From contig QKFD01000025.1 of the NCBI GenBank assembly GCA_003251535.1, positions 1-48,676 on the forward strand: 48,676 nucleotides of DNA, read 5' to 3'. A program made the position numbers and the translations under genes. The stretch is from Chromatiales bacterium. Lineage in GTDB: Bacteria; Pseudomonadota; Gammaproteobacteria; Thiohalomonadales; Thiohalomonadaceae. The notes under the pieces were generated by a model. It worked only from the letters and a program-made list of their open reading frames with translations. It made no database searches and was not told where the DNA came from. Positions 25,815 to 47,871 of this stretch are shown here, one piece after another. The stretch's first letter is position 1. Each line of letters opens with the position of its first letter.

Positions 25815-26119
25815 GCGCCTCCCATCCCGGCCATGAGGTGGGGCATAGGCTGGGTTGAGAAGATGTTACATAGATAGTATGAAACTTATAGCGGGCCGCC
25901 CTGGACCCGGTTGGATTGGGCGCCTCCCTTGGCCTAAGCGTTGGATGGCGCCGCTCTGGGCGGGAGGCTCCCCCGCCCGAGGGGTAGGCGGGCAGGGCCA
26001 ATATCACTTTCAGGCCATAGTTGATAAACACTTTTTTGAGGGCGTGGTCATCCTCTAGCAACATCCCTCCGCCATGCTGCGCTGCTATTTGGCACGGGCA
26101 TAACTCAGCGGGGGAATTC
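25815..26119. other. Intergenic region upstream of the lamin-tail protein gene
   Basis: About 300 bases between two divergent genes. It holds a GC-rich inverted repeat (GGGCGGG 25958-25964 and CCCGCCC 25972-25978) and a more AT-rich stretch around 26000-26040. No convincing promoter or small gene was found. The ribosome binding site of the next gene (GGGGGAA) lies at its end. Confidence 0.5.
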
Positions 26120-29100
26120 ATGGGTATCGGGCAGCAGGCGGCGCTATTGGTGGCACTGGGAGGGGTCGCACTCTCGGCCCAGGCAGAGATGCGGATCACC
26201 GAGTATCTCTACTCAGGCACACCAGGGGAGTTTGTCGAGTTCACCAACGTGGGGGCTACCCCCATTGATATGAGTGGCTGGAGCTTCGACGACGACAGCC
26301 GCACCCCAGGCACCTTTGATCTCTCCGCCTTTGGCGTGGTGGCTCCAGGGGAGTCGGTGATCCTCACCGAGAGCGCCAGCGTTGACTTCAGGGCCGGCTG
26401 GCGGCTCTGCTCGCGGGTCAAGGTGGTCGGGGGTCTCTCCGCCAACCTGGGACGCAACGATGAGATCAACCTCTACGACGCCAGCAACACCCTGGTCGAT
26501 CGCCTCACCTACGGTGATCAGAGCTTCTCTGGCACCATCCGTACCCAAGACGCCAGCGGTTGGGTAAGCGGCGCCGGCCTGGGGGCCAACGATGCCAGCG
26601 CCTGGACGCTCGCCAGCGACGGCGATACCGAGGCGAGTTGGACCAACCTCGACGGCAATGTCGGCAGCCCGGGCCGCTCTAGCCACGGTAGTGGTAGTAA
26701 CCCCTGCGGGGTGCGCATCACCGAATATATGTACTCCGGGGGCGACGGCGAGTTTATCGAGTTCACCAACCTCGGCCCGCTCCCGGTGACGATGGCGGGG
26801 TGGAGCTTTGATGACGATAGCCAAAGTGCCGGTACCGTCGATCTCTCCGCCTTCGGCAGTGTGGCGGTGGGCGAATCGGTGGTCTTGACGGAGGCGGCCG
26901 CCAGCGCCTTCCGTACCGCCTGGGGGCTGTGTGAGGCCCAAAAGGTGATTGGGGGCCTCTCTACCAATCTCGGGCGTAACGATGAGATCAACCTCTACGA
27001 TGCGGGCGACACCCTGATCGATCGCCTCACCTACGGTGATCAAAACCTCCCCGGCACTATCCGCACCCAGGACGCCAGCGGTTGGGTGTCCAGCAGTGGT
27101 GTCGGAGCCAACGATGCCAGCGCCTGGACCCTCTCCAGCGCAGGGGATAGCGAGCAGAGTGCCGCCTCCGCCTTGGGCGATATCGGCAGCCCCGGCCTCA
27201 GCAGCCTTGCGCCAGAGGCGTTCGACCCCTGTCCGGTGGTCGCCGGGGCGCCTACCATCGAAGTGGCCGCCACCACCACCAGCCGGCTGTCGTTGCCGGC
27301 GAGCGGGGGCGGTGCCATTGGGGCGGCACTCTCCGACCCCACCGATCCGGCGGCCACCGCAGGGATCGATTTCACCCTCAGCGATAGTGATACTGCCCTG
27401 GGTGCCCTGAGCGTGACTGCCGTGAGCAGCGATGCCGCGGTGGTGGCGAGTGGTGGTCTGCTACTGAGCGGCAGCGATGGCACCCGCAATCTACAGATCG
27501 TGCCCACTGGGGTGGGTATGGCCACCATCAGCGTGACGGTGGACGATGGTAGTCACCAGGCGAGTTACACCATTGACTACCGTGTCACCGCCGCCTCCCT
27601 CAACCCGGCGACCACCCGTTTCCACTCCGATGCCGCTGACGCCAGCGCCGCGGTGGGGATTGATGCCGACTGGATGCTCATCGCCAATGATGAGGATCAG
27701 GTGCTGCGGCTCTACCCCCGTAACGACTCCGGCTACCCCCAAGGGCGTACCCCCTTGAGCGACGAGATCGCCCCCGATAGCGGCCCCTTGGCCCTCACCG
27801 ACGCCTCTGGTAGCGGTCGGGTGCGGGAGGTGGATATCGAGGCGGTGGCGCGGGCCGGCAGTCGTCTCTACTGGATCGGCTCCCACAGCAACAATAAGGA
27901 TGCCGAGGCGGCCCCCAACCGTCGCCGCCTGTTCGCCACCGATCTGGGGGGGAGCGGTGCCACCACCACCCTGACCTATGTCGATCGCTACGACTACCTA
28001 CGGGAAGATCTCATCGCCTGGGACGCCGCCAATGGCCATGGTTTAGGGGCCAACGCCCTCGGGTTGGCCGCCAGCGCCGCGGAGGGCACTACCCCAGAGG
28101 CGAGCGATGGCTCCGGTTTCAACATCGAGGGGATGGTGATGGCGCCAGACGGCGTGGCCGCCTATCTCGCCTTCCGGGCCCCGCTACAGACCACCAGTAG
28201 CCGTGATCAGGCGCTGATCATCCCGGTCAATGAGCTAGACAATCTGGTGGCCGACGGGGCGGCCGGTTCTCGTGCGGTGGGTGCGGCCAGCTTTGGCTCC
28301 CCTATCCTGCTGGACTTGGGGGGCCGGGCGATCCGCGACATCGCCCGCAATGATGCCGGCTACTACCTGATTCTGGCGGGGCCTAGCGCCAGCGCCAGCG
28401 GGATTGCGCCGGCCGACTTCCGGCTCTTCGCCTGGAGCGGTCTGCGGGAGGATGCCCCCCAGGAGCTGGCGGTGGATCTCACGGCGCTGGCACCCCGCGG
28501 TAGTTTCGAGGGGATTGTCGAGGTGCCGACCGCGGCCGGCCCTGGGACGGCGGTGCAGCTGATTGTCGATAACGGTGACACCGATCTCTATGGCGACGGT
28601 AGCGCGGCCAAGGATCAACCCAACCCCGGCCAGCGCCTGTTCCGCAGCGAGTGGGTCACGGTCACTCTGCCGCAGCTCGATGGCGACAACCTGCCGGAGG
28701 CGGTAGAGGACGGGGTGCCGGGCTTCGCTGGCGGCGCCCAGGGTGACGGCAATGGCGATGGCATTCCTGATAGCACCCAGGCCTATGTCGCCTCCCTGCC
28801 GGCGGTGAGCGGCGGCTGCTACTTCACCGTTGTCGTCCCCACGGGCTACACCCTACGGGCAGTGGCCGCGACGGCGCCAAGCGAGCTTCCCGCCAACGTC
28901 ACCTTCCCGTGTGGCGTTGTGGGGTTTGAGGTGGGCGGGCTGAGTAGCCATCAGGCGCTACCGGTCACGGTGATCGCCCATGGGTTGCAGCTACCTGACG
29001 GCCACTACTTCAAGCAGACCGTGGTGGGCGGGATGGATGAGCCTGGGGCCACGGTCAGCGTGGTGGGCAATGCCACGCGCTTTGAGCTGACCCTGGCGGA

Positions 29101-29269
29101 CGGGGATAACTTCGACCTCGATGGCAGCGCCGATGGCCACCTCACCGATCCCGGTGGCCCGGCGGTGGTGGGGCCCACCGAGGCGGTCCCTGGGCTACAG
29201 CCGTGGCAACTGGCCGGCTTGGCCCTGCTGTTGGCCGCTGCGGTGGCACGCCGCCAGCGGTTGGATTAA
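26120..29269 (+). CDS. Exported protein with two lamin-tail domains, a DUF3616-like domain and an IPTL-CTERM-like tail
   Basis: The 1049-residue protein starts at ATG 26120, seven bases after GGGGG. Residues 1-22 are a signal peptide ending SAQA. Two lamin-tail domains follow (about 24-195 and 198-370), each with RITEYxYSG, GEFxEFTN and GWSFDDDS; they are spaced 174 residues apart and very similar. A beta-rich Ig-like part (about 390-495) leads to a DUF3616-like domain (about 497-830) with WMLIANDEDQVLRLYPRN, YWIGSHSNN and GFNIEGMVMAPDG. Next come a Ca-binding-like GDGNGDGIPDS and a beta domain resembling choice-of-anchor U domains (PTGYTLRAV). The tail is VPGLQPW, a hydrophobic segment and ARRQR, resembling IPTL-CTERM sorting signals. 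It is probably a surface protein; lamin-tail domains often accompany nucleases or phosphatases, but no catalytic site was identified. Confidence 0.87.
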   Translation: MGIGQQAALLVALGGVALSAQAEMRITEYLYSGTPGEFVEFTNVGATPIDMSGWSFDDDSRTPGTFDLSAFGVVAPGESVILTESASVDFRAGWRLCSRVKVVGGLSANLGRNDEINLYDASNTLVDRLTYGDQSFSGTIRTQDASGWVSGAGLGANDASAWTLASDGDTEASWTNLDGNVGSPGRSSHGSGSNPCGVRITEYMYSGGDGEFIEFTNLGPLPVTMAGWSFDDDSQSAGTVDLSAFGSVAVGESVVLTEAAASAFRTAWGLCEAQKVIGGLSTNLGRNDEINLYDAGDTLIDRLTYGDQNLPGTIRTQDASGWVSSSGVGANDASAWTLSSAGDSEQSAASALGDIGSPGLSSLAPEAFDPCPVVAGAPTIEVAATTTSRLSLPASGGGAIGAALSDPTDPAATAGIDFTLSDSDTALGALSVTAVSSDAAVVASGGLLLSGSDGTRNLQIVPTGVGMATISVTVDDGSHQASYTIDYRVTAASLNPATTRFHSDAADASAAVGIDADWMLIANDEDQVLRLYPRNDSGYPQGRTPLSDEIAPDSGPLALTDASGSGRVREVDIEAVARAGSRLYWIGSHSNNKDAEAAPNRRRLFATDLGGSGATTTLTYVDRYDYLREDLIAWDAANGHGLGANALGLAASAAEGTTPEASDGSGFNIEGMVMAPDGVAAYLAFRAPLQTTSSRDQALIIPVNELDNLVADGAAGSRAVGAASFGSPILLDLGGRAIRDIARNDAGYYLILAGPSASASGIAPADFRLFAWSGLREDAPQELAVDLTALAPRGSFEGIVEVPTAAGPGTAVQLIVDNGDTDLYGDGSAAKDQPNPGQRLFRSEWVTVTLPQLDGDNLPEAVEDGVPGFAGGAQGDGNGDGIPDSTQAYVASLPAVSGGCYFTVVVPTGYTLRAVAATAPSELPANVTFPCGVVGFEVGGLSSHQALPVTVIAHGLQLPDGHYFKQTVVGGMDEPGATVSVVGNATRFELTLADGDNFDLDGSADGHLTDPGGPAVVGPTEAVPGLQPWQLAGLALLLAAAVARRQRLD

Positions 29270-40240: not shown

Positions 40241-40906
40241 ATGGCCAAAGACTACGCCCGTCGCCCGGCTACCAAGAAGGGGGGCGGGACCGCCCAGACC
40301 CCAGGTTGGGTATGGATGCTGATGGGGCTGCTGCTCGGCGTCATCGTCACCGGCCTGGTCTTCATGCGTAACGATCCCCAGGTGGCCAAGGTGGTGGATA
40401 GCCTGCCCAAGGTGCAGATCGAGACCTCGCCCCCTACATCGGCTGCTGCCCCAGGGCCCAAGGCGATTGAGCGTACCCCGCCGCCGGCCCCCAAGCCGGC
40501 GCCAGCGCCTCAACCGGCACCGAAGCCAGAAGAGGCCAAGCCGGCGCCGAAGCCGGAAGAGAACAAAATGGCCTACGACTTCTACACCGTCCTGCCGGAG
40601 CAGGAGGTGGCCGTGGTCGAGGGGGGGAGCGGGAGCCCGAAGGAGGAGAAACCAAAGGAGCTGCCGGCCGGCAAGTATGTGCTACAGGTTGGCTCCTTCC
40701 AGACCCGCAAAGAGGCCGAGGAGCAGAAGGCGCGGCTGGCCCTGACCTTGGGGGAGACGGCTTCGGTGCAGAGTGTTGAGGTGAGCGGCGCCACTTGGCA
40801 CCGGGTGCGCCTGGGCCCCTATACCGACACCAAGGCACTGGATCGGGTCCGGGATAAGCTGAAAGAGAGCAATGTGAAGTATGTGGTGTTGAAGGAGAAG
40901 TCCTGA
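40241..40906 (+). CDS. SPOR-domain cell division protein (FtsN-like)
   Basis: This 221-residue protein has a short cytoplasmic N-terminus, one membrane segment (WVWMLMGLLLGVIVTGLVFM, about residues 25-44), a Pro/Lys/Ala-rich periplasmic linker (about 65-105) and a C-terminal SPOR domain (YVLQVGSFQTRKEAEEQKA to the end), which binds denuded peptidoglycan at the division site. Architecture and position after priA and argS match FtsN-like proteins of gammaproteobacteria. The ATG directly follows the argS TAA (TAAATG). A strong hairpin follows. Confidence 0.93.
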   Translation: MAKDYARRPATKKGGGTAQTPGWVWMLMGLLLGVIVTGLVFMRNDPQVAKVVDSLPKVQIETSPPTSAAAPGPKAIERTPPPAPKPAPAPQPAPKPEEAKPAPKPEENKMAYDFYTVLPEQEVAVVEGGSGSPKEEKPKELPAGKYVLQVGSFQTRKEAEEQKARLALTLGETASVQSVEVSGATWHRVRLGPYTDTKALDRVRDKLKESNVKYVVLKEKS

Positions 40907-40911
40907 GCCGG

Positions 40912-40943
40912 GGGAGCCGCTACGCGATAGCGGCTCCCGTTTC
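40912..40943 (+). terminator. Intrinsic terminator after the priA-argS-SPOR operon
   Basis: GGGAGCCGCTA (40912-40922) and TAGCGGCTCCC (40928-40938) form a perfect 11-base-pair stem with loop CGCGA, followed by a short GTTTCC tract. It lies six bases after the SPOR stop codon. Confidence 0.85.
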
Positions 40944-41165
40944 CCACCTGGCTTGGCGAAGCGCCGGCCCCTGCTTGCCGGTGTCCCCTCCCATTAGCGT
41001 CTCCCCCCGTTCTGCCCGATGAGAGGGCCTTGGGTGCCACTGGCTGGCCCAATGACCTCACCGCATCGGGAGGGGATTATCTCTCCGCTCGATAGGCTTC
41101 AATCCCCTCCGACCATGGGCTGGCACCCCCTCCACCAGGGTTGGCATATGCGCCCTGGGGGCGGT
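40944..41165. other. Intergenic region between convergent genes
   Basis: About 220 bases between the SPOR gene terminator and the 3' end of the CGC-motif gene. No small gene or clear second hairpin was seen. Confidence 0.5.
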
Positions 41166-42020
41166 CTATTGGGCGCTGGCTAGGGTGACACCGCGTTGCA
41201 GCAGTGCGGCGCGCAGCTCAGGCGGGAGGGGGGCCATCGCCTCCAGTTGAGGGGGCAGGGCCACCGCTTGGGCGGTGCTGGGGAGTAGCGGATAGCTCCC
41301 TTGGTTCCCCAGCTTCTGCTCTAGGGCGTAGATCCACGCCTTGACCACGCTATCGCCTCCGCTGGCCTGGGTGGGCCAGCTCCCCTTGAAGGAGCTGAGT
41401 ACGCCGGGGGTGGTGTCAAATGAGAGGCGATAGGTGTAGGTGGCGCCGCTCTCCATGTGGGTGACCAGGGCGATGGCAAAGTCGCTGTCGGGCCAGGGCC
41501 AGCCGGGGTTCGTGCTGCCCTGTCGGATGGGGCAGCCGCACATCATGGTGACCATGGCCGAGCAGCTCACGACGGGCCCCTCCAAGACGGCGCTGCCGTT
41601 GCTGATGCAGAGCCCATTGATCTCCAGTACCAGCCCCTCGGGGAAGGCGGCGCTGCCACCGATGTTGACCCCCGGCAATAGGGTGATCTCCGATCGGGTC
41701 CAGCGGGCCTGATCCATATGTTTGAAGGGTCCCCATATATGGACATAGAGGCGGGTCGGGACATTGATGTCTGCCGTGAGCTGTACCTGCACCGTATCGG
41801 CAGCGGTGGCGAAGGGCTGGGCGCGACTGACCGGATCCATGAGATTGTTGGGACCGGCGCTCTGGGGATTGGAGGCGTCGGCCAGGGCAAAGTCGAGATA
41901 GAGGCCGCTGTCGGCCTCTTGCAACATGATCAGGGCACTGGTACCGCTGCTATCGGCGGCATCGTGCCCGAGATATTTACCGCCCCGCGCCGCTGGACGG
42001 ATGGTGATTTGGGTCTGCAT
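41166..42020 (-). CDS. Uncharacterised CGC-motif protein, copy 1
   Basis: I do not recognise a named family. The 284-residue protein has no signal peptide or membrane segment. It starts MQTQITIRPAARGGKYLG after GAGGGAG at good spacing. It seems to have two beta-rich halves: the first ends around ITLLPGVNIGG and LVLEINGLCISN, the second begins with VVSCSAMVTMMCGCPI and includes SGATYTYRLSFDTTPGVLSS. The MMCGC segment with the nearby Cys could bind a metal or form disulphides. A tail of about 30 residues rich in Leu, Pro and Ala is absent from copy 2. The paralogue lies 50 bases upstream on the same strand, so this is a tandem duplication. Confidence 0.85.
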   Translation of the reverse strand: MQTQITIRPAARGGKYLGHDAADSSGTSALIMLQEADSGLYLDFALADASNPQSAGPNNLMDPVSRAQPFATAADTVQVQLTADINVPTRLYVHIWGPFKHMDQARWTRSEITLLPGVNIGGSAAFPEGLVLEINGLCISNGSAVLEGPVVSCSAMVTMMCGCPIRQGSTNPGWPWPDSDFAIALVTHMESGATYTYRLSFDTTPGVLSSFKGSWPTQASGGDSVVKAWIYALEQKLGNQGSYPLLPSTAQAVALPPQLEAMAPLPPELRAALLQRGVTLASAQ

Positions 42021-42070
42021 CGGTGACTCCCTCTTGACTGGCGGATGGTGGTGTAACGCGAGCCCTTAGA

Positions 42071-42883
42071 TCAGCTCGACGCCTGGCGACACTCCACTAA
42101 TGCCAGGGCACTCTCTACCTCCGCCGGCCGGGCGGTCCCATTGGGGTTGTATGGATAGATCGCATAGCGACCCTGATTGCCCAGTTTGGGTTGTGAGGCG
42201 AAGACCCACGCCTGGAGCACGCTATCACCGCTGGCCGCTTGGCTAGGCCAGTCACCGATGAAGGTGCTGCTTTGACCCGGGGTGGTATCGTAATGGAGTG
42301 GATAGCTATAGACGGCGCCACTTTGCATATAGGTCACCAGTTGAATGGTGAAGTCACTGGCGGGCCAATAGAGATTGGAGTTATCGCCGATGTGGCAGCC
42401 GCACATCATGGTGACCATGGCGCTGCAACTCAACAGCGCCCCTTCATAGACCGCAGTGACGTTACTGATGCACAACCCCGGGATCTCGATCACCAAACCT
42501 TCTGGGTAGTAGGCGCTATCCCCGATATGGACGCCCGGCAGGAGGGTAATGGTCGAGCGGACCAGCGCCGCTTGATCGCCATATTTATAGGGTCCATAGA
42601 CCGAGAGGCAGTAGGTGGTAGGTTCTGATATATCGACCGTTAGATTGGTGAAGACCGTATTGCTGTCGGTGGCGAAGGGGGCCGCCCGACTGACCGGTGT
42701 CATCAGCGTAGCGGGGCCGGAATCTTGGGGGGGATTGGTGAGTACAAAATTGGCCGTGACCTGTTGCCCCGTGGTGTAGTCACTCAAGATCGCCATGGCG
42801 CTGACGTAGGCCAGATCGGCGGCATCGGGGCCTAAATATTTACCCCCGCGGGCGGCGGGACGGACGATGAGGGTGGTGCGCAT
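42071..42883 (-). CDS. Uncharacterised CGC-motif protein, copy 2
   Basis: This 270-residue paralogue of the next downstream gene shares RPAARGGKYLG, PVSRAAPFATD, ITLLPGVHIG, EIPGLCISN, SCSAMVTMMCGC and the end KLGNQGRYAI. ATG 42883 is chosen over ATG 42889 because AGGA lies seven bases before the former but only one base before the latter, and it gives an N-terminus equal to copy 1. Central and N-terminal positions differ more than the CGC part, suggesting a constrained core and a diverged ligand or partner surface. No signal peptide. The function is unknown. Confidence 0.85.
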   Translation of the reverse strand: MRTTLIVRPAARGGKYLGPDAADLAYVSAMAILSDYTTGQQVTANFVLTNPPQDSGPATLMTPVSRAAPFATDSNTVFTNLTVDISEPTTYCLSVYGPYKYGDQAALVRSTITLLPGVHIGDSAYYPEGLVIEIPGLCISNVTAVYEGALLSCSAMVTMMCGCHIGDNSNLYWPASDFTIQLVTYMQSGAVYSYPLHYDTTPGQSSTFIGDWPSQAASGDSVLQAWVFASQPKLGNQGRYAIYPYNPNGTARPAEVESALALVECRQASS

Positions 42884-42889
42884 AACCAT

Positions 42890-43212
42890 ATCCTATGGAG
42901 TTATCTTCACTGAAACATGGGTCTGGCCGTGTGTGACCCAACCGGTGATGGGCGTCGCCTGCTCTGGTGCGGCGCCGGGGCGCGGACCGATTGTGCGCAT
43001 TGTTGCATGACGGTTGCAAGTCGCCCGCCTGCCGCCTGGATAGAGTGACCTGGGGCCATATGCCGCCGCGGCCTCCCCAGGCGATCCATTTCATATAAAG
43101 ATGTGGTGGCGGCGAAGGTGGGGTGGGGGCGCAGAGGGGCGACCGCAGATGGGTATGGAAAATGAAATAGGGCCGGGCCTCCTTGCCCTGCCGTATGCGG
43201 TTCCCGCACGGA
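42890..43212. other. Intergenic region upstream of the CGC-motif genes
   Basis: About 320 bases between the O-methyltransferase stop and the start of the CGC-motif pair, both read on the - strand. It probably holds the promoter of the pair. The best candidate on the - strand, TTGCAA and CACAAT about 18 bases apart (near 42990-43020), is weak. No small gene seen. Confidence 0.4.
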
Positions 43213-44337
43213 CTAAGTGTGGGTGACCCCGTTGAGTACCAATAACTTGCCGAAGGGGCGCCAGGTCACCACCTCCTCCAGCTGCCACGCCCCTTGGGCA
43301 CACAGCTGTTGCCACTCGCTATCGGTGCGCTCTCGACCCCGAGTATTGATCCACATCTGCATATCAAAGGCCGCGGCCATGGGATCGGCACCGCACTCTG
43401 GCAACATCAACTCCATGAGGGCGACGCGCGCCCCGGTTGTGCCGGCGGCCTGACGCAGGTTACGCAACACCTGCACCGCCTCCTCCTCTCCCAAACCGTG
43501 AAAGACGGCGCTCAGTAGGTAAATATCTTTCTCGTCGCGGGCTGGGGGGATCGCCACCAGTAGGTCCTGGGCCTGAAATTGGACCCGTGGCAGGAGCGCC
43601 GCCTGCTGCCGCTGTCGCCAGTGGGCCTCGGCCTCGGCGATGACGCCAGGGCGATCAACCACCACGGCGGTCAAGTGGGGATGGTGGCGCAATAGGGCAA
43701 TGGATTTATCACCGCGGGAGCCGCCGATATCAAATACCCGGTGGAACTGTCCCCAGTCGAAATCTTGCGCAAAGTAGTCGCCCGTCAGGGCATCGACGCT
43801 GGCCATCGCCTGGGCAAATAGGGCATCGAACTCGGGATGCTGCTCCATGTATTGGTAGAGCGGGGTGCCATGGACCGACTCGAACGGTGTCTGGCCCGTG
43901 CGCAGATCCGGCACCATCTGTTCATACCACGGTCGGCTCATCGTGCCGCTGTTGTGCATCAGGATCATGGCGCGCACGCACTCCGGGTGATCGCGGCGTA
44001 GACGATCTGAGAGGGGGTTATTGCGAAACTGCTGCGGCGCACTCTCGGTGAAGACCCCGTTGGCCGCCAACATCCGCAGGAGGCGATAGGTGGCATCGGG
44101 GTGGCTGGCGCAGCGGCTGGCCAGCTCCGCCGCGCTGAGCGTCGCATCGCCTAGGTGGGTGGCGATGTCTAGCTCCGCGGCGGCGTGGAGGGCGCGGGAT
44201 TGCCAGAAGGCGGAGCCTATCTGGATCAGTCGAAAAGGTGGGGGAACCAGCCGGTTGGGGAGTCTCTGCAACCAGTTGGCGAAGCGGGTCAACTGCAAAA
44301 AGAGCCACACCTGGAGGCGGTGTTTCTGTCTGGACAT
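43213..44337 (-). CDS. SAM-dependent O-methyltransferase (Methyltransf_2 type)
   Basis: The 374-residue protein has an N-terminal winged-helix dimerisation domain (about 40-130, with SRALHAAAELDIATHLGDAT and TYRLLRMLAANGVF) and a C-terminal Rossmann methyltransferase domain with the SAM motif VFDIGGSRGDKSIALL (about residue 198) and VVVDRPGVI. The family methylates hydroxyl groups on small aromatic or polyketide molecules, and also includes the carotenoid enzyme CrtF. The usual catalytic His may lie in the AVFHGLGEEEAVQVL segment. AGGAGGT lies eight bases before the ATG. The substrate cannot be inferred; a glycosyltransferase pair is divergent upstream. Confidence 0.9.
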   Translation of the reverse strand: MSRQKHRLQVWLFLQLTRFANWLQRLPNRLVPPPFRLIQIGSAFWQSRALHAAAELDIATHLGDATLSAAELASRCASHPDATYRLLRMLAANGVFTESAPQQFRNNPLSDRLRRDHPECVRAMILMHNSGTMSRPWYEQMVPDLRTGQTPFESVHGTPLYQYMEQHPEFDALFAQAMASVDALTGDYFAQDFDWGQFHRVFDIGGSRGDKSIALLRHHPHLTAVVVDRPGVIAEAEAHWRQRQQAALLPRVQFQAQDLLVAIPPARDEKDIYLLSAVFHGLGEEEAVQVLRNLRQAAGTTGARVALMELMLPECGADPMAAAFDMQMWINTRGRERTDSEWQQLCAQGAWQLEEVVTWRPFGKLLVLNGVTHT

Positions 44338-45713: not shown

Positions 45714-46976
45714 ATGAGCGCATCTCTCCCCACTATTTTGCATCTCAACACCCGCTCCGATGCCGGTGGCGCAGCGGTGGCGGTGCGCACCCTGCATACC
45801 GAGCTGAACGCCCTGGGGGAGGTCCACTCCAGCCTATTGGCGGGGCGGGGCATCAGCGATCCGGCCCATGGCTTCCACACCTTGGCCAATGGTCGATTCC
45901 GCTTTTTGGCCAATGTGCTGGCCTTCCGCCTGCTGGGCCTAGAGGGGGCCTGCAACCACGCCGCTTGGCGGCGGGCGCGCCCCACCATTGCGGCAGCGGA
46001 TCTACTCCATCTACACAACGCCCACGGTTACTACCTGCCGCTGGGGCTGCTGCGCCAGCTGTTGCAGCGTCCGTTGGTCTGGACCCTCCATGACCACTGG
46101 CTCGCCACGGGGCGCAGCGGATGGCTGCCGGATGGGGTGCCGGCGTCCCCCTTAGAGCGGCTGCTGCCGTGGTATGGCGGCGGCTATCCGGTGGAGTGGT
46201 GGGATCGGTCACGCCAGCGGCGGGCGGTGCTCTGGCGCTTGCTCAGCGCCGCAGGTAGTCGCCTGCGGTTGGTCTGCCCGTCGGCCGCCCAACGGGAGCG
46301 GATGTTGGCCACTGGGCTGCCGGTCTCGCGTATTGATGTCATTCCGCTGGGGCTGTTTGGTGATGAAGCGGCCCCCCAGGCCGAGCAGCGGGCGGCTGCA
46401 CGCGCCCAATTGGGGTTGGCAGGGGAGGGGCGGCGGATCGCCCTATTTGCCGCCCTGCGCCTGGATGAGGAGCGCAAGGGCTGGTCTGTGTTGGAGCAGG
46501 CGTTGGCCCGGACGGCCGATCCCGCCTCCTGGCTGGTGATCGCCTGCGGTGAGCGGGGGCGGCGCCCGGATCGATGGGTGACCGAGAGGGGGAGTGAGAT
46601 CCGCTGTCCCGGTCTGCTACCCAAGGGGGAGCTGATCCAGTACTTCCAGGCGGCAGATCTCTTCGTCAACCCCAGCTTCCAAGAGACCTTCGGCCTGACC
46701 AACATTGAGGCGGCGGGGGAGGGGACGGCGGTGGTCTGTTCCGATCTCCCGGTGTTTCACGAAACCATGGGGGAGTGGGCGACCTATGTCGCGCCCGGCC
46801 AGGTGGCAGCGCTGGCCGCTGCCCTGGATGGTCCAGCGCCGGTGGCGGGCCCGGCGCTGGCCGCCGCCGTGCGCCAGCGCTACGCCCGCGCCACCATGGC
46901 GGCCCGCTACACGGAGATCTACCGTGAGCTTTTGGCGATGCACGGGGGGCGGCAGGCGAGGGGCGATCTGGGATAA
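45714..46976 (+). CDS. Family 4 (GT-B fold) glycosyltransferase
   Basis: This 420-residue protein starts at ATG 45714 (MSASLPTILHLNTRSDAGGA) after GAGGCGAGC. It has the two Rossmann-like domains of GT-B enzymes, with LLHLHNAHGYYLPLGLL and WTLHDHWLATGRSGW in the first, and the nucleotide-sugar-binding EX7E motif region NPSFQETFGLTNIEAAGEGT in the second. Proteins of this kind (WcaC-like) act in surface polysaccharide synthesis. It is coupled to the upstream GT2 gene. Confidence 0.92.
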   Translation: MSASLPTILHLNTRSDAGGAAVAVRTLHTELNALGEVHSSLLAGRGISDPAHGFHTLANGRFRFLANVLAFRLLGLEGACNHAAWRRARPTIAAADLLHLHNAHGYYLPLGLLRQLLQRPLVWTLHDHWLATGRSGWLPDGVPASPLERLLPWYGGGYPVEWWDRSRQRRAVLWRLLSAAGSRLRLVCPSAAQRERMLATGLPVSRIDVIPLGLFGDEAAPQAEQRAAARAQLGLAGEGRRIALFAALRLDEERKGWSVLEQALARTADPASWLVIACGERGRRPDRWVTERGSEIRCPGLLPKGELIQYFQAADLFVNPSFQETFGLTNIEAAGEGTAVVCSDLPVFHETMGEWATYVAPGQVAALAAALDGPAPVAGPALAAAVRQRYARATMAARYTEIYRELLAMHGGRQARGDLG

Positions 46977-47010
46977 TATCCAGCCCACCCACTGCTACTC
47001 GAATCTCCCC

Positions 47011-47871
47011 ATGGCCCGTCGTTCATCATCTTCGCTCGTCCGTCTCGTGCTACGCCACCCGCGTCTTTGGCTACCTATCCTGCTACTCGGTGCCGGTGCC
47101 TATGGCTATGAGGTGTGGGTCGCCCGCCCCGCCATGAGCTACTTGGGGGTGCCGCAGACGGCGATCTTCTCCCCCCAGAACTGGACCCACATCCTAAGAA
47201 ATGAGGGCTTCCTGGTGGGGTACTCGGAGCTGCGCGGCAACCCGTTGTGGGTGACCTACCGGGTGGCGCCGTTCGATAGCTCCACCCCGTCACCGCCCCG
47301 CCCCGACCGCTTTGAGCGCGACTGGCGCAACCTCACCGGGGTGGAACACAACGACTACCGTGGCAGCGGCTATGACCGTGGCCACCTCGCCCCCAACTAC
47401 CTCATCGCCAAGCTCTATGGTCGCAGCGCCCAGCTGGAGACCTTCCGCATGACCAACATCACGCCGCAGCGGCCGAAGCTGAATCAGAAGCTGTGGCAGC
47501 GGCTGGAGGAGATCGAGGCGGGACGGTTCGCTGGCCGCTTTCCCGAACTATGGGTGGTGACCGGGCCGATATTCGATGCCAAGCAGGAGACGCTAAAGGG
47601 CTCCTCGCGGGTCGAGGTGCCAGATGCCTTCTTCAAGGTATTTGCGGCGCCGGGGGATACCCCCCGTTATCTCGCCCTCCTCGTGCCGCAGGAGGTCAAG
47701 GGGAATGAGGACCTGAGCCGTTTTGTGGTGAGCGTGGATGAGGTGGAGGCCCAGAGCGGGCTGGACCTCTTTCCCGACCTGGCCGACGCGCTGGAGGCGC
47801 CGCTGGAGGCGGCGGTGGATCCAGGGCCGTGGGGTCTGGATGAGTTGGGGCACCGGCCCTCGCGTTACTAG
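47011..47871 (+). CDS. Membrane-anchored DNA/RNA non-specific endonuclease (NUC1 type)
   Basis: The 286-residue protein has an N-terminal membrane anchor or uncleaved signal (LWLPILLLGAGAYGYEVWVA, about residues 19-38) and a beta-beta-alpha metal nuclease domain with the catalytic DRGHLAPN (residues 122-129, His 125 the general base) and MTNITPQRPKLNQKLWQRLE, whose Asn binds the metal ion. The family cuts both DNA and RNA and is exported. The anchor would place the domain in the periplasm, suggesting a nucleotide-scavenging or defensive role. The ATG at 47011 lies 34 bases after the glycosyltransferase stop. Confidence 0.93.
   Translation: MARRSSSSLVRLVLRHPRLWLPILLLGAGAYGYEVWVARPAMSYLGVPQTAIFSPQNWTHILRNEGFLVGYSELRGNPLWVTYRVAPFDSSTPSPPRPDRFERDWRNLTGVEHNDYRGSGYDRGHLAPNYLIAKLYGRSAQLETFRMTNITPQRPKLNQKLWQRLEEIEAGRFAGRFPELWVVTGPIFDAKQETLKGSSRVEVPDAFFKVFAAPGDTPRYLALLVPQEVKGNEDLSRFVVSVDEVEAQSGLDLFPDLADALEAPLEAAVDPGPWGLDELGHRPSRY

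Follow-up and report, generated by a model that had tools for sequence, protein, structure and literature searches.

A tandem gene pair from a Chromatiales bacterium belongs to a widespread Cys-Gly-Cys protein family with apparent selenoprotein members

The 48,676-nucleotide stretch of DNA analysed here (the window; Chromatiales bacterium, contig QKFD01000025.1) carries two intact open reading frames (ORFs) on its minus strand, P0001 and P0002, whose products are 53% identical (E 8e-87), a likeness far above chance. Judged by profile comparison, this pair consists of very diverged members of a mostly exported family of two-domain beta-sandwich proteins with the motif Cys-Gly-Cys (CGC), and in some relatives the first Cys codon of the motif is replaced by UGA. 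That this is an undescribed family with a selenocysteine (Sec)/Cys redox site is well supported, and we consider it highly probable. For the broader reading, in which the pair represents fast-evolved tandem paralogues of an unnamed, usually exported thiol/selenol redox family for reactive sulfur, we see the chances as evenly balanced.

The original prediction, made from the letters of the window, had described tandem same-strand paralogues with shared motifs and with neither a known domain nor a signal peptide, and our analysis bears this out. The blocks RPAARGGKYLG, ITLLPGV and SCSAMVTMMCGC are identical in P0001 and P0002, two further Cys residues (140 and 155 in P0002 numbering) are common to both proteins, and at the DNA level the genes form an in-register direct repeat (172 nt at 73% identity) with more blocks at the same 863-nt spacing. 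Searches of Pfam and NCBIfam up to E 10 returned nothing for either protein. By eye, neither has a recognisable signal peptide, and upstream extension adds none, since the open frame starts at the start codon in P0002 and 15 codons earlier in P0001; the stretch flagged in P0002 by a crude hydropathy window (residues 26-35) lies inside a predicted strand and is not N-terminal. The CGC part had also been held to be the best conserved. A 12-residue block there is indeed identical, but so are RPAARGGKYLG and other blocks.

Distant relatives were recovered with P0002 in three of 94 other genomes (four of 95 if its own is counted). A five-row profile matched 12 of 369 genomes of the class, one match being a weak fragment, and an 11-row profile matched seven of 398 genomes of the phylum, the pair's own genome being included in both counts. 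With four closer members as queries, genome_contigs yielded 106 relatives, the best 80 of which were kept. The relatives belong to the Pseudomonadota, Thermodesulfobacteriota, Myxococcota, Nitrospirota, Nitrospinota and Acidobacteriota, and further to the Bacteroidota, Planctomycetota, Latescibacterota, Poribacteria, Hydrogenedentota and KSB1; six plasmid records also carry members. When the canonical family was aligned with the window pair profile against profile (hhalign), the match had a probability of 99.5% and an E-value of 4.5e-23 over 217 columns, spanning both domains. The canonical member is a single protein of about 250 amino acids. A signal-like start was found by crude hydropathy in 65 of the 75 rows besides the window pair (three of them duplicates), and some of the ten rows without one look like effects of start-codon choice. 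Nine canonical or UGA-containing members had no NCBIfam match up to E 1 and hit no Pfam model above its cut-off. No match to a characterised family was found above cut-off, and no solved structure was related by sequence (best E 0.48).

The alignment on which the conservation of the site is based has 80 rows, among them three duplicates (P0003/L021, L014/L052 and L015/L047); ten genome_contigs loci were left out, eight for a UGA codon and two (L065 and L088) with scrambled frames. Cys-Gly-Cys is present in 80 of the 80 rows, Lys37 and Trp187 in 79 each and Arg81 in 74 (P0003 numbering). Together with ten more loci that read UGA-Gly-Cys, this upholds the idea that the family is undescribed and its CGC core constrained. 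Within the fold, a strand of the C-terminal Ig/FN3-like beta-sandwich is immediately followed by Met-[Met/Leu]-Cys-Gly-Cys-Pro. The motif is missing not from most homologues, a possibility raised together with the prediction, but from one clade: in all 27 inspected loci of the Cys-less Nitrospirota relatives (L118-L144), Cys1 is replaced by Ser and Cys2 by Ala, Ser or Thr, while Lys37 has become Met or Leu and Arg81 Met or Ile. Pro102, Pro112, Pro130, Gly131, Gly146, Trp187, Phe219, Gly243, Asn244 and Gly246 are kept in the same 27 loci, and five invariant Pro/Gly positions are retained in the clade. The joint loss of Cys1, Cys2, Lys37 and Arg81 from these aligned sequences suggests that the CGC site includes Lys37 and Arg81, and the clade may be a natural inactive or repurposed form. 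It speaks against this that Phe38, Thr71, Met176, Gly229 and others are also altered; therefore the loss is not confined to the four residues. The Cys-less clade is large: 42 of 198 Nitrospirota genomes matched without a UGA, and the 27 loci inspected come from this set.

At eight of the 80 genome_contigs loci (L035, L075, L082, L084, L092, L094, L095 and L096), UGA stands exactly at the first Cys codon, with Gly-Cys and the remainder of the protein in frame. A scan of the Nitrospirota, in which 45 of 198 genomes matched, adds the UGA loci L116 and L117, and each of the ten loci continues in frame to a later stop. L092 and L094 encode the same protein in two assemblies and L092 and L095 belong to one assembly, so that the ten UGA loci amount to nine genomes and nine distinct hairpin regions. 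For bacterial selenocysteine insertion sequences, the rules given are a loop of 3-9 nt with a G in its first two positions, an upper stem of at least 4 bp and a distance of 16-37 nt from the UGA (PMC13188914, in excerpt). The hairpins of the UGA loci conform to these stem, loop and spacing rules: in ten out of ten, a stem of 6-9 bp with a G within the first two loop positions starts 16-17 nt after the UGA. The same criterion is satisfied by three of 70 Cys loci, or by 19 of 70 if the start may lie anywhere from 16 to 37 nt. The mean apical-stem energy is -7.0 kcal/mol in the UGA loci versus -3.1 kcal/mol in the Cys loci, and folding relative to synonymous recoding gave a mean z of -1.54 (n=10) versus -0.28 (n=70; Mann-Whitney p 5e-4), a comparison in which related sequences among the loci are not independent. 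Three loci do not stand out when taken singly: L084 (z +0.44), which folds best into a different hairpin, L096 (z -0.32) and L117 (z -0.75). One stem register shows a paired change, from C-G in L035 to U-A in L117. In addition, the Leu codon of the peptide PGGLW is TTA in all eight UGA loci that have this peptide and in none of 15 Cys loci; L084 uses TTA for no other of its 29 Leu codons. Rfam had no match at gathering scores at the hairpin (L094, L116 and L117 were not included).

SelB was searched for in 45 genomes, which included the UGA genomes other than those of L116 and L117. It scored above the NCBIfam cut-off in six of the seven UGA genomes tested versus 17 of 38 Cys genomes, and the UGA genome without a match is a 0.9-Mb assembly. 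A tRNA-Sec, in a search blurred by cross-matches to other tRNAs, was clear in G764 and G765 and marginal in G763 (48.6 versus a cut-off of 47 bits); in G764 (L114), ARAGORN places it about 1.3 kb from selB. UGA also ends other ORFs of 150 or more amino acids in five of eight UGA loci. On the family tree, from which six rows had been dropped beforehand and L094 and 21 of the 27 Cys-less loci left out, Sec and Cys forms are interleaved, with at least five changes, one of them forced by starred branches. Several observations weigh on the other side. The total-energy rule does not discriminate (ten of ten UGA versus 69 of 70 Cys loci), and a stricter apical-stem test (-7.5 kcal/mol or better) is passed by only three of ten UGA loci and by three of 70 Cys loci. 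In G766-G769 the tRNA-Sec score was below the cut-off, and none was found there in the 10-20 kb around selB; at L082, L092 and L094 no other long ORF ends in UGA, such ORFs being too few there. Taken as a whole, some family members, but not the window pair, are apparently selenoproteins, as read from their genes. A UGA in place of its codon would make Cys1 a Sec/Cys position, which is the mark of a reactive redox site. Separately, the window's own genome (G000 contig 127, 45755-45840) has a match to the tRNA-Sec model of 48.2 versus 47 bits, which may be another tRNA.

AlphaFold2 models of P0002 and of the canonical member L085 have a mean predicted local distance difference test score (pLDDT) of 89.4 and 96.4, respectively. 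Both are beta-rich, with two sandwiches and almost without helices; a C-terminal helix is found only in P0002. The best Foldseek match of P0002 was 3hn5 (E 1.3e-5), followed from E 2.6e-5 by entries of DUF3823 (4fxt), and that of L085 had an E-value of 9.2e-5. By the VIA structure comparison, L085 reached Z 12.4 to an engineered protein (93 residues, root mean square deviation (rmsd) 2.4) and about Z 10 to the C-terminal domain of sulfite oxidases (chain 2a9a: Z 10.1, 94 residues, rmsd 2.5), and the best value for P0002 was Z 8.7. Template modelling scores of about 0.25-0.40 and identities of about 10-14% indicate that DUF3823, Ig/FN3 and sulfite oxidase domains share only a common fold with the family; DUF3823 is absent from the Pfam matches of 14 family members. 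The structural matches reflect common Ig/FN3 folds and imply no function. TlpA disulfide reductases have a thioredoxin fold, with helices packed on a central sheet, and this fold is not shared by the present family, whose two confident models are beta-sandwiches; no thioredoxin occurs among the 50 matches listed in each of four structure lists, a comparison that covers listed families only, so that unlisted families may still match. DUF1573 (PF07610) is, like the present family, a beta-sandwich domain. UGC motifs of both DUF1573 and TlpA (cd02966) are catalogued in PMC13188914 (in excerpt), the likeness lying in the Cys/Sec-Gly-Cys of the former and in the motif and thiol-disulfide chemistry of the latter. 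None of 14 family members tested matched PF07610, and an hhalign comparison of the family profile with one DUF1573 protein (G777; of two loci, only L150 gave a usable frame) returned a probability of 1.2%, on which kinship with DUF1573 was rejected; the DUF1573 protein has CGCT, whereas the present family mostly has CGCP. No fitting entry was found in the 119-entry catalogue of PMC13188914, in the portion available and compared by domain identifier, motif and NCBIfam scan rather than by sequence, nor in the available portion of PMC12013277.

No gene always adjoins the family members, and the recurring neighbour clusters cover few loci. A Tll0287/DUF3365 haem protein gene lies 25-192 bp away on the same strand at six of 81 loci, YeeE/YedE genes are near six, metallo-beta-lactamase genes near four (one weak, L079; Lactamase_B in Pfam), ArsR near three and TauE near two. 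We read the Lactamase_B neighbours as persulfide-dioxygenase-like. One or more of these five sulfur-linked families occur within 3 kb at 13 of the 81 loci and none in the farther flank (435,624 near versus 755,274 far bases); the neighbour families were confirmed by Pfam for ten representatives. Plasmid-derived queries gave near/far counts at the 81 loci of 6/0 for DUF3365, 3/0 for ArsR, 5/1 for resistance-nodulation-division (RND) and 2/0 for membrane fusion protein (MFP) genes, and the control queries PriA and ArgS were never near (far 0 and 1). The MFP/RND clusters were considered as partners and set aside as too thinly spread. On plasmids L145 and L146, the family gene is accompanied by genes for an FAD/NAD(P) oxidoreductase, which we identify as resembling sulfide:quinone oxidoreductase (SQR), and by rhodanese, RND, ArsR, DUF3365, DUF2202, TlpA and cyd genes; on plasmid L147, TauE and TSUP genes are near the member, and on plasmid L148 a YeiH gene and one for a LysR regulator. 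In the Sphingomonas plasmid L147 (7486-8729), a DsbB-annotated gene lies 2 bp upstream of the family member, a possible oxidant-protein pair.

These neighbours overlap, at the 13 loci and on plasmids L145-L147, with the BigR/FisR sulfide/persulfide response genes, in which BigR controls yeeE-yedE-pdo2 and to which TauE, SQR and CydAB belong (PMC7315123, in excerpt). Stand-alone DUF3365 haem proteins are assigned a redox role (PMC12889525, in excerpt). The recurrent neighbour set, its overlap with the BigR kit and the redox role of DUF3365 make reactive sulfur the best-supported theme, and we tentatively assign the family a role in it, at a confidence a little short of even. Against it stands that at 68 of the 81 loci the five sulfur-linked families are all absent within 3 kb, so that this context covers a minority of loci. 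The queries of the neighbour test were, moreover, drawn from the near flanks, which biases the result toward near. Plasmid-derived queries for rhodanese and CydA were found once near and never far, those for TlpA and CydB never near and once far, and those for SQR, DUF2892, DUF2202, CydD, DsbB, TauE, YeiH and a peroxiredoxin fragment neither near nor far at the 81 loci. The window pair's own neighbours carry no sulfur link. In four loci of the Thermosulfurimonas/Thermodesulfatator group (L074, L083, L087 and L090), which includes sulfur disproportionators, two half-size YeeE/YedE genes follow directly downstream of the member. Inspection by eye showed neither a TusA nor a DsrE gene alongside the member there, and the arrangement is therefore not the YTD cluster as in PMC8780430 (in excerpt).

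The following mechanism would fit these findings. Cys1 or Sec would be the attacking thiolate or selenolate and Cys2 the resolving thiol. The conserved Lys and Arg would lie near the CGC site, and the motif would either cycle between dithiol (selenol-thiol) and disulfide (selenenylsulfide) or hold transferable sulfane sulfur. To judge from the neighbouring genes, the canonical protein would act in the periplasm on persulfides, polysulfide, thiosulfate or over-sulfurated protein thiols and pass electrons or sulfur to membrane or haem partners such as DsbB, the DUF3365 haem protein or YeeE/YedE. A bolder version, which we regard as doubtful, sees a redox enzyme class of its own, with Sec/Cys-Gly-Cys on an Ig-like sandwich and Lys/Arg supplied by the other domain, working as a periplasmic persulfide/polysulfide reductase or as a sulfur carrier feeding YeeE/YedE, DsbB or the DUF3365 haem protein, a chemistry that the window pair would have moved to the cytoplasm. 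In any case, a defined candidate active site, a form that is apparently a selenoprotein and a role open to testing are now available for a family that spans many phyla without a Pfam or NCBIfam model, and standard gene callers may be expected to cut its UGA forms at the active site. If the sulfur link is true, the family supplies an exported thiol protein that the sulfide/persulfide response gene sets have lacked; the available portion of PMC7315123 names no protein of this kind, and the family would be an extra periplasmic member.

The UGA codons might be sequencing errors, readthrough or a reassigned stop, in which case the Sec-based redox argument falls. The eight named UGA records are all metagenome-assembled, tRNA-Sec is clear in two of seven genomes only and three of eight loci lack another long ORF ending in UGA. 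We nevertheless hold this explanation to be very improbable, given that the same codon occurs at ten loci in nine genomes and at least three groups with no other internal stop, that the hairpin stands at a fixed distance and the codon choice differs from that of the Cys genes, and given also the SelB counts, the use of UGA as a normal stop in five of eight loci and the interleaving of Sec and Cys forms on the tree. A rather unlikely alternative is that the Met-rich MxMMCGCP binds Cu(I), Hg(II) or a similar soft metal, Sec being the better ligand, and that the protein serves as a chaperone or buffer for metal in the periplasm. Met-Met-Cys-Gly-Cys is plausible as a soft-metal site; ArsR-type regulator and RND efflux genes are near some members (RND within 3 kb at five of 81 loci and farther at one), and a heavy-metal P-type ATPase and a cation diffusion facilitator are encoded within 8 kb on plasmid L147. 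However, the neighbours that lie nearer and recur are genes for DUF3365, YeeE/YedE, persulfide-dioxygenase-like and TauE proteins, with the SQR-like oxidoreductase and rhodanese on L145 and L146, and the loss of Lys and Arg together with the Cys pair is more in keeping with an anionic thiol substrate than with a metal site.

The family might instead comprise general periplasmic protein-disulfide oxidases or isomerases with a non-thioredoxin fold and with DsbB or TlpA as redox partner, the CGC pair then working on the thiols of exported proteins. Short CGC peptides act like protein disulfide isomerase, which counts in its favour, as do the disulfide bond formation protein B gene on L147 and the TlpA-family genes two genes off on L145 and about 3 kb off on L146. 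The DsbB of L147 has, however, no homologue at the 81 other loci and the TlpA of L145 has one, 8.6 kb distant, and we think this explanation unlikely. Improbable to a like degree is the view that the window pair are leftovers, that is, Ig-domain proteins that are decaying or repurposed and whose CGC is a structural disulfide or nothing. The pair's branch on the family tree is very long (4.92 changes per column), both proteins lack the otherwise conserved Trp127 and Gly69 positions as well as a recognisable signal peptide, and the pair is absent from all 19 further genomes examined in the order. Yet both frames are intact, Lys, Arg and CGC are kept in both, the P0002 model is confident, and a structural disulfide would be odd in a protein without an export signal. 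We read the pair as offshoots of a thiol/selenol redox family: Lys, Arg and CGC are retained and two more Cys residues are shared, without a recognisable export signal, and hence related thiol chemistry inside the cell is probable, perhaps on a private substrate, this last step being a guess. Given the long branch, the lack of a recognisable signal peptide, the occurrence in one of 20 genomes of the order (its own) and the non-sulfur neighbours, the pair is best read as a lineage-specific and probably cytoplasmic offshoot rather than as canonical family members. Its own role is assigned with low confidence, and the very long branch also means that its function may have changed.

The coordinates of the pair and of the residues discussed are compiled in Table 1. 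The gap between the genes is short enough for a single transcript, and the two may be co-transcribed; no sigma70-like promoter was found in 40800-43400 (1.0 expected by chance). Homologues had been expected always to occur as pairs. This did not hold: no second family gene was found near members in 78 loci (those of the 80 in which the gene was recognised; called genes in flanks of up to 10 kb, some much shorter), except in L075, where one gene is split into two pieces by its UGA. The pair or heterodimer was thus rejected as a rule of the family, whose gene stands alone elsewhere, and the rating of this locus as the best candidate for an undescribed protein system stands for the family but not for a heterodimer. 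Similarity and profile searches of the pair's own genome found no third copy. A phage origin was rejected, since P0002 had no viral relative (in a scan of viral contigs made with this protein and not with the wider family) and there was no PHROGs match.

Table 1. Positions of the tandem genes and of their conserved CGC, Lys and Arg codons in the window.
Feature	Coordinates	Strand	Remarks
P0001	41166..42020	-	284 aa; diverged CGC/UGC family member; no signal peptide recognisable
P0002	42071..42889	-	272 aa, or 270 aa from an internal ATG at 42883; tandem paralogue of P0001
Gap between P0001 and P0002	42021..42070	-	50 bp; transcription order would be P0002 then P0001
Cys161-Gly162-Cys163 codons of P0001	41532..41540	-	Invariant in 80/80 aligned rows
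Cys163-Gly164-Cys165 codons of P0002	42395..42403	-	Invariant in 80/80 aligned rows
Lys15 of P0001 (family Lys37, P0003 numbering)	41976..41978	-	79/80 rows; lost in the Cys-less clade
Lys17 of P0002 (family Lys37)	42839..42841	-	Same Lys as P0001 Lys15
Arg66 of P0001 (family Arg81)	41823..41825	-	74/80 rows; lost in the Cys-less clade
Arg68 of P0002 (family Arg81)	42686..42688	-	Same Arg as P0001 Arg66

The pair is surrounded by ORFs for a SPOR protein, an O-methyltransferase and glycosyltransferase-like proteins. The O-methyltransferase, with a dimerisation domain (PF00891, PF08100; 43213-44337, minus strand), is encoded on the same strand upstream of the pair, 323 bp off. Elsewhere in the window, a 1082-aa ORF on the plus strand (26021-29269) contains, as seen by eye, two near-identical repeats (RITEY..YSG..GEF.EFTN), and its C-terminus is hydrophobic and ends in basic residues, like that of a sorted surface protein. 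A further plus-strand ORF (46705-47871) has RGSGYDRGHLAPN in its second half, which we take to resemble the active site of DNA/RNA non-specific endonucleases.

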